DNA from: an uncultured Selenomonadales bacterium
GTDB taxonomy: Bacteria; Bacillota; Negativicutes; Acidaminococcales; Acidaminococcaceae
Length of the DNA stretch: 64,000 bases
Assembly (NCBI GenBank): GCA_900315805.1
Contig: ONAN01000004.1
Coordinates: 62,001-126,000, forward strand
Reading direction: 5' to 3'
Every line of letters begins with the position of its first letter. Within the stretch, counting starts at the first letter, position 1. The position numbers and the translations under genes are program-made. This document shows positions 27,950-41,673 of this stretch, one piece after another. A model generated the notes under the pieces. The model was not told where the DNA came from and did no database searches. It saw only the letters and a list, made by a program, of their open reading frames with translations.

Positions 27950-28036
27950 GGAGAGATGACCGAGCGGTTGAAGGTGCACGCCTGGAAAGCGTGTGTACGG
28001 GAAACCGTACCGAGGGTTCGAATCCCTCTCTCTCCG
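27950..28036 (+). tRNA. tRNA-Ser (anticodon GGA)
   Basis: A class II tRNA with acceptor GGAGAGA / TCTCTCC, a D-loop, an anticodon loop containing CTGGAAA (anticodon GGA), a long variable arm (GTACGGGAAACCGTAC region) and the T-loop GGTTCGAATCC. CCA is not encoded. It is followed 8 bp later by the SRP RNA. Confidence 0.95.
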
Positions 28037-28044
28037 TTGTAAAA

Positions 28045-28153
28045 CTGCAGGGGCAGGTCCTGCGCAATGGCGGCCTGTGAACCGTGTCAGGACCGGAAGG
28101 TAGCAGCACTAAGCGGATACCGTCATGTGCCGCGGGGGTGCCTGCTTCTGCAG
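28045..28153 (+). ncRNA. ffs: Signal recognition particle RNA, small bacterial type (4.5S)
   Basis: The conserved helix-8 motif GTGTCAGGACCGGAAGGTAG with the following CAGCACTAAG is present at about 28084-28113. The ends CTGCAG (28045-28050) and CTGCAG (28148-28153) pair to close a long hairpin, as expected for the short SRP RNA. It acts with Ffh in co-translational membrane targeting. A terminator follows. The neighbour dnaX is a common partner of ffs in Firmicutes. Confidence 0.92.
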
Positions 28154-40101: not shown

Positions 40102-40206
40102 AACAGGGGCTGGGGGCCGGTTCGGCAGCTTCCTCGAAAAAATTCACAAATTGGGTCTGTACAGATTCAACTTTTTCTGATAATATAATGCCGTAAATTG
40201 AATAAA

Positions 40207-40312
40207 CGTGCTGCGGGACCTGACGGATCAGTGGAATCAACCACGTGGACCGGAGCATAATGAATCAGCCGACCGTCTGGGCATAAGTGATTGCCCGGAC
40301 GGTCGTTTTTTT
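40207..40312 (+). promoter_or_regulatory. ZTP (pfl-motif) riboswitch with transcription terminator
   Basis: A leader of about 100 nt with features of the ZTP/ZMP aptamer. Outer stem GTGCT (40208-40212) pairs with AGCAT (40254-40258). Within it, CTGACGG (about 40220-40226) precedes a GTGG...CCAC hairpin and a CCGGAGC segment. The 3' part ends in CCGTCTGGGCA (40273-40283). ACGG and CCGT can form the expected pseudoknot. The pseudoknot strand is also the left arm of a strong terminator (GACCGTCTGGGCA with TGCCCGGACGGTC, then T7), so ligand binding should prevent termination. A TATAAT lies at 40184-40189. Motif recognition is from memory. Confidence 0.78.
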
Positions 40313-40341
40313 CGTCCGCCCGGTGCAAAGGAGGACTCACT

Positions 40342-41673
40342 ATGAAGAACAAGTGGCTCATCGCGTTGTCTGCCGTCGGTATCCATATCTGCATCGGCAG
40401 CGTCTATGCCTGGAGCGTCCTCACGCGCCCCATTATGGCGTCCATGGGTTTTTCCCAGAAAGAGGTGACGTGGATCTTCTCCATCGCCATCCTGTTCCTG
40501 GGCCTGTCCGCCGGTTTCCTCGGAGACTACGTGGAAAAGTACGGACCCCGTAAAAGCGGCCTGGCGGCAGCGTGCTTCTTCGGCACGGGCATGCTCGGCA
40601 GCGCCCTGGCCTTGCACCTGCACAGCCTCGTTTTACTCTACCTGTTCTATGGCGTCATCGGCGGCATCGGCCTCGGCATCGGCTATATCACGCCCGTTTC
40701 CACGCTCGTGAAATGGTTCCCGAAACACCGCGGCTTCGCCACGGGCCTCGCCATCATGGGCTTCGGCTTCGCCGCCCTCATCGCCGGTCCGCTCATGCAG
40801 CGCATTGTGGCGACCCTGGGCCTGATTCCGAACTTTCTGATCCTGGGCTGCGCCTACATCGTCATCATTTCCGCGTCGGCCCTCTACCTGGCACCCCCGC
40901 CGGACGAATTCCTGAAGGCCAACGGCCTGCCGGTCGCGTCCCACGGGAACGATGTACAGGACCGCAAGGCCGGCAAACTGGACAAGCTGAAGACCGTAGC
41001 CGTCAAGCTGGCGGACCACCCGAAAATGGGGAAGATGCTTCCCTGCGTGGACGCCTTCAGCGCCAAGGAAGCCCTGCAGACCTGGCATTTCTACGCCCTG
41101 TGGTGGATCTTCTTCATCAACATTTCCTGCGGCATCGCCCTGCTGGCCGTGGCTTCGCCCATGGGCCAGGAAGTGGTCGGCATGACACCCGCCCAGGCAG
41201 CGTCCATGGTCGGCATCATCGGCCTCGTCAACGGCGGCGGCCGCATCATCTGGTCCACCGTGTCCGATTATCTCGGCCGGCGCAACGTCTATGTACTCTT
41301 CTTCCTGATTGAGATCGGCGCGTTCTACGCGCTGGCTTCCACGACGGACAGCTTCCTGTTCCAGGCGCTGGTCCTGCTCATCATCTCCTGCTACGGCGGC
41401 GGCTTCTCCTGCATGCCCGCCTACCTGTCGGACCTGTTCAGCACGAAGGAACTGAGCGCCATCCACGGCAAAATCCTCACGGCGTGGGGCATTGCCGGCA
41501 TCATGGGCCCCCTGGCCCTGTCCGTCATTTACGAAAACACGCACAGCTATTCGCTGACGCTGTACTTTTTCTCCGGGTGCTTCGTCCTGAACCTCGTCAT
41601 CGCCCTGGTTCTCAAGTGGCGTACTTCGCACCATGTCATCCTGCAGATGATGCGCGAACAAAGTAACGCATGA
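40342..41673 (+). CDS. OFA-family MFS transporter (oxalate/formate antiporter-like)
   Basis: A 443-residue carrier with twelve predicted membrane segments. The start NKWLIALSAVGIHICIGSVYAWSV and the GIGYITPVSTLVKWFPKHRGFATG loop are typical of the OFA (OxlT-like) family, which moves small carboxylates such as oxalate, formate or lactate. A central polar loop spans about residues 185-235. The ATG at 40342 follows AAAGGAGG. The gene is preceded by a ZTP-type riboswitch, which would tie its expression to one-carbon/folate shortage. That suggests a formate or glycine-related substrate, but this is inference. Confidence 0.88.
   Translation: MKNKWLIALSAVGIHICIGSVYAWSVLTRPIMASMGFSQKEVTWIFSIAILFLGLSAGFLGDYVEKYGPRKSGLAAACFFGTGMLGSALALHLHSLVLLYLFYGVIGGIGLGIGYITPVSTLVKWFPKHRGFATGLAIMGFGFAALIAGPLMQRIVATLGLIPNFLILGCAYIVIISASALYLAPPPDEFLKANGLPVASHGNDVQDRKAGKLDKLKTVAVKLADHPKMGKMLPCVDAFSAKEALQTWHFYALWWIFFINISCGIALLAVASPMGQEVVGMTPAQAASMVGIIGLVNGGGRIIWSTVSDYLGRRNVYVLFFLIEIGAFYALASTTDSFLFQALVLLIISCYGGGFSCMPAYLSDLFSTKELSAIHGKILTAWGIAGIMGPLALSVIYENTHSYSLTLYFFSGCFVLNLVIALVLKWRTSHHVILQMMREQSNA

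Follow-up and report, generated by a model that had tools for sequence, protein, structure and literature searches.

Within the window, the whole 64,000-nucleotide stretch of DNA that was analysed, a structured leader stands directly ahead of a gene for an MFS carrier of 443 amino acids (P0001; 40342..41673), assigned as a carrier by its Pfam and NCBIfam matches and putatively to formate by its neighbourhood and its pocket residues. All features of the locus lie on the forward strand. The leader comprises a ZMP/ZTP riboswitch aptamer (pfl motif, RF01750) at 40205..40289, within which the pseudoknot strands GACGG (40222..40226) and CCGTC (40273..40277) are found, and an intrinsic terminator at 40271..40312, recovered by a terminator search and made up of a 13-bp stem (40271-40283/40292-40304) and a T-tract (40306-40312). 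A Shine-Dalgarno sequence, AAAGGAGG, occupies 40327..40334, 7 nt before the carrier ATG at 40342, and the stretch first annotated ends at 40341, the base just before this codon. A consensus scan of the leader region found no sigma-70 promoter, so that TATAAT at 40184..40189, which has no good -35 partner, is to be read as a possible -10 element. Elsewhere in the window, a bacterial small SRP RNA (28051-28150) lies beside a tRNA gene (27950-28036).

The first-pass annotation had proposed a ZTP aptamer in this leader, and the Rfam covariance model bears this out: RF01750 matches over its whole length (1-86) with 47.8 bits, the gathering score being 39 bits, and the match was repeated in a full-window scan. 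A genome-wide search found this element to be the sole ZTP switch of the window's genome. The parts that had been named are all present, including the outer stem GTGCT/AGCAT, which corresponds to P1, the GTGG/CCAC hairpin and the conserved CCGACCGTCTGGGC end, while the proposed ACGG/CCGT pseudoknot, which joins the J1/2 strand to the P3 loop, is present and one pair longer (GACGG/CCGTC). Since the free energy of the aptamer alone is ordinary (z 0.18), it is the covariance model that decides its identity. In an alignment of 26 carrier leaders, the pairs of P1, P2, the pseudoknot and P3 are kept in 96% of cells, and pairing falls to only ~31-41% when the partner is slid by 1-3 bases. Two-sided changes occur in 10 of the 21 aptamer pairs, a level equalled by none of 500 shuffles; nine of the ten belong to P1, so that every P1 pair tested changes on both sides. 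The pseudoknot is paired in 26/26 aligned carrier leaders, and across 102 leaders GACGG/CCGTC occurs in 97, a compensated GGCGG/CCGCC in three and a G-U pair in one. The earlier expectation for orthologous leaders thus stood as regards pairing, conserved or compensated; the pseudoknot is so nearly invariant in the 26-leader alignment that it offers little covariation power, and we set its covariation aside as proof. By its sequence, the leader at 40205-40289 is an ordinary new member of the known ZMP/ZTP riboswitch class, and its binding of ZMP/ZTP would follow from membership of that class.

The terminator was found independently of the aptamer model. Its stem, which reaches 14 pairs if the closing C-G pair 40270/40305 is counted, has a free energy of -26.2 kcal/mol and is followed by seven T. 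The 112-nt leader as a whole folds at -50.4 kcal/mol (z -4.36), with none of 200 shuffles as good, and this excess stability is due mostly to the terminator. Across the 26 leaders the stem pairs are kept in 92.9% of cells, and covariation is hardly above that of shuffles; the comparison therefore supports pairing, and terminator covariation was rejected as a line of evidence. Because the 5' arm of the terminator contains the 3' strand of the pseudoknot, the docked aptamer and the terminator are mutually exclusive. This is the ON-switch design that had been read from the single sequence, and the overlap recurs in 24/26 carrier leaders of the family and 13/19 carrier leaders of the class. By a simple test, the pseudoknot strand falls within a terminator stem in only 8/54 non-carrier ZTP leaders, as opposed to 24/26 carrier leaders. 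Two expression-platform designs are thus seen in the window's family, the non-carrier type being exemplified by leaders of AICAR transformylase genes (L057, L060). ZTP switches of Thermosinus carboxydivorans and Clostridium beijerinckii have the same fold, the same competition between pseudoknot and terminator, and ON logic, in which the ligand-stabilised pseudoknot precludes the terminator and the gene is on (PMC7337938). By comparison with these switches and by class membership, ligand binding would permit read-through here as well; their targets are pfl or purine and folate enzymes, whereas here the target is an MFS carrier.

The pairing of switch and carrier is conserved. A search of the window's family recovered 82 ZTP switches in 57/59 genomes, 26 of which precede this MFS carrier; the others precede AICAR transformylase (44), formate-tetrahydrofolate ligase (fhs, 5) or PFL or its activase (pfl/pflA, 3), and four run off a contig. 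Sampling of seven further Negativicutes families gave a ZTP switch at 20/20 carrier loci, and one was likewise present at 11/11 named Negativicutes carrier loci, among them loci of Megasphaera, Dialister, Veillonella, Pectinatus, Anaerovibrio and Acidaminococcus. No ZTP switch was found before the carrier in the nine non-Negativicutes orthologues tested, nor before three divergent carriers of the family (G010, G022, G043). In a Sporomusaceae MAG, tandem ZTP aptamers (L203:2732-2814 and 2849-2931) lie directly upstream of the carrier gene, and a second tandem pair (G164:C1:487200-487451) was observed in another Negativicutes family.

Evidence for the substrate comes from the neighbourhoods of orthologous carriers. 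Genes lying up to 3 kb from 80 such carriers were all clustered before any naming. Among the non-Negativicutes orthologues, which are 48-56% identical to the window carrier, a formate or one-carbon gene adjoins the carrier in 39/46 loci. These genes encode formate dehydrogenase alpha or FdhD in 25 loci (the alpha subunit in 24, FdhD in 15), PurT, the formate-dependent GAR transformylase, in 10, PFL with its activase (PFLA) directly upstream of the carrier in three Verrucomicrobia-type loci, and GcvPB in one. The assignments score above the cut-offs of their models: 811 bits for the formate dehydrogenase alpha neighbour (TIGR01591, cut-off 666), 575 for PurT (TIGR01142, cut-off 502) and 1130 for PFL (TIGR01255, cut-off 994). 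An MpsC-domain protein occurs near the carrier in 12 non-Negativicutes loci and a DUF1641 protein in five; in L169, L178, L184 and nine Bacilli loci like them, the MpsC-domain protein (PF10057) in most cases separates the carrier from formate dehydrogenase. The first-pass annotation had offered a formate carrier as a guess, and genomic context now supports it strongly, making formate the likely substrate.

Gene content points the same way in the window's genome, where Fhs is present and searches found neither a PFL-like enzyme of any kind nor a FocA-type channel. FocA/FNT channels (PF01226) have the same inferred role, moving formate across the membrane, in an unrelated fold, and in the window's genus they replace rather than resemble the carrier: a FocA-type gene is absent from 3/3 carrier genomes and present in 11/11 others. 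In Acidaminococcus (g2), the sole two carrier genomes are the sole two without PFL (2 vs 7). These same two genomes have an FNT-like gene at ~2 kb or less from fhs (G003:C15:23014-27019, L222; G006:C1:929507-933670, L221). Within the family, carrier and PFL appear to exclude one another (PFL in 0/25 vs 10/34 genomes, P 0.003), a contrast that we do not take as main evidence because 350 Negativicutes genomes show no such relation (49 hold both; Fisher P 0.22), and the class-wide form of the claim was dropped. Avoidance between carrier and FNT is modest across the same 350 genomes (odds 0.47, P 0.002). All of these tests ignore phylogeny, so that the family and genus contrasts may represent few events. 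The window genome's own AICAR transformylase gene has no hidden ZTP switch before it. This gene (G000:C2:28799-29575, L217) and that of the nearest relative (G053:C28, L218) are both without one, and a ZTP switch is found at the AICAR transformylase gene in the 11 congeners that lack the carrier.

An alternative is that the ZTP ON-switch controls a carrier of L-lactate (or pyruvate), in keeping with the NCBI name, and that the cell meets one-carbon stress with an imported carbon source that is turned into serine, glycine or formate. P0001 matches Pfam MFS_1 at 152.6 bits and passes the NCBIfam model for the L-lactate transporter SfMCT (NF049980) at 374.2 bits, with a cut-off of 320, and it shares with SfMCT (PDB 6g9x) the MFS fold family and the residues that anchor the carboxylate. 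Its R301, N297 and Y115 correspond to SfMCT R280, N276 and Y119, each indispensable to transport by that protein (PMC6573034), and the equivalents of Y331 and F335 are also kept. The pocket signature is common to the window protein, other Negativicutes carriers and the non-Negativicutes orthologues: every aligned clade member has Y115, F141, N297, R301, Y351, F355 and L379, and all except one gapped row have W382. However, identity to SfMCT is just 27.8%, and the full substrate and proton site of that protein is not reproduced. Throughout the clade, F141, L379 and W382 stand in place of SfMCT L145, F359 and C362, and each member has V, A or L where SfMCT has the proton-site residue H250, V270 being the one in P0001. 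To compete significantly for SfMCT, an acid needs three or more carbons in its chain (PMC6573034). The replacements in the clade could plausibly make the pocket narrower and suit it to a smaller acid. The orthologues, moreover, adjoin FDH/FdhD, PurT and PFL, and no lactate enzyme is found among the conserved neighbour clusters. NCBIfam gives the name L-lactate transporter to the formate-linked orthologues too. Taken together, we consider a lactate carrier unlikely.

It is less probable still that formate travels chiefly outward through the carrier, or both ways, with ZTP induction serving balance rather than uptake. The association with PFL and FDH leaves the direction of transport unfixed, and an exporter would fit those loci too; the three PFL-PFLA-carrier operons and the 49 class genomes in which carrier and PFL occur together agree with export. 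ZMP/ZTP builds up when 10-formyl-tetrahydrofolate is short, and ZTP is a signal of formyl-group shortage, which argues against export, while the PurT-linked orthologues and the PFL-less window genome are hard to explain by it. On this context, inward transport of formate is most likely.

An oxalate:formate exchanger of the OxlT type is very improbable, despite OxlT (PDB 8hpj) being homologous and, with SfMCT, the nearest solved structure, and despite the TM8 arginine and asparagine being kept: identity is 28.0%, the matches to TIGR00890 (195.1 bits, cut-off 374.85) and TIGR04259 (139.3 bits, cut-off 335) are weak and far under threshold, and the column of the OxlT lysine, which we take to bind the second carboxylate, is W382 throughout the clade. 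The earlier label of an OFA-family carrier is accordingly loose; with both oxalate/formate models failed, the SfMCT model passed and ~28% identity to either protein, ‘L-lactate’ is in turn an unproven transfer of function.

On the observed aptamer, terminator overlap, conserved linkage to the carrier, neighbourhoods and gene content, we think it likely that the leader is a ZTP-sensing transcriptional ON-switch that drives a formate-importing MFS carrier in a cell devoid of PFL and FocA. We propose that a shortage of 10-formyl-tetrahydrofolate would cause ZMP/ZTP to accumulate and stabilise the GACGG/CCGTC pseudoknot. The stabilised pseudoknot would hold the 5' arm of the terminator, allowing RNA polymerase to read through into the carrier gene. 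Without ligand, the 13-bp terminator would form and the gene would be off. Formate brought in by the carrier could then be converted by Fhs to 10-formyl-tetrahydrofolate for purine synthesis. With somewhat less assurance, we favour a broader reading, in which the MFS clade named L-lactate transporter consists of formate carriers that are under ZTP control in Negativicutes and replace FocA or PFL in some lineages.

The riboswitch class itself is already known, and published summaries give enzymes of purine and folate metabolism as its regulon (PMC2864571, PMC7266159). Neither the link between ZTP switch and carrier nor a case for renaming the clade was found in the literature searched, and an earlier mention in the founding paper (Kim et al. 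2015) or in supplementary tables is possible.

The host of this switch is a gut bacterium, and its carrier goes by the name of a lactate or oxalate/formate transporter in databases. Our analysis suggests that the curated name L-lactate transporter is probably wrong for the carrier clade, and that a ZTP switch may predict the substrate of a clade that spans Bacilli to Verrucomicrobia. The protein offers a directly testable candidate for a formate transporter that is unlike FocA. Since the carrier is under a ZTP switch in Negativicutes, the 10-formyl-tetrahydrofolate alarm would act directly on formate uptake, and the ZTP regulon would extend to the transport of a one-carbon donor.
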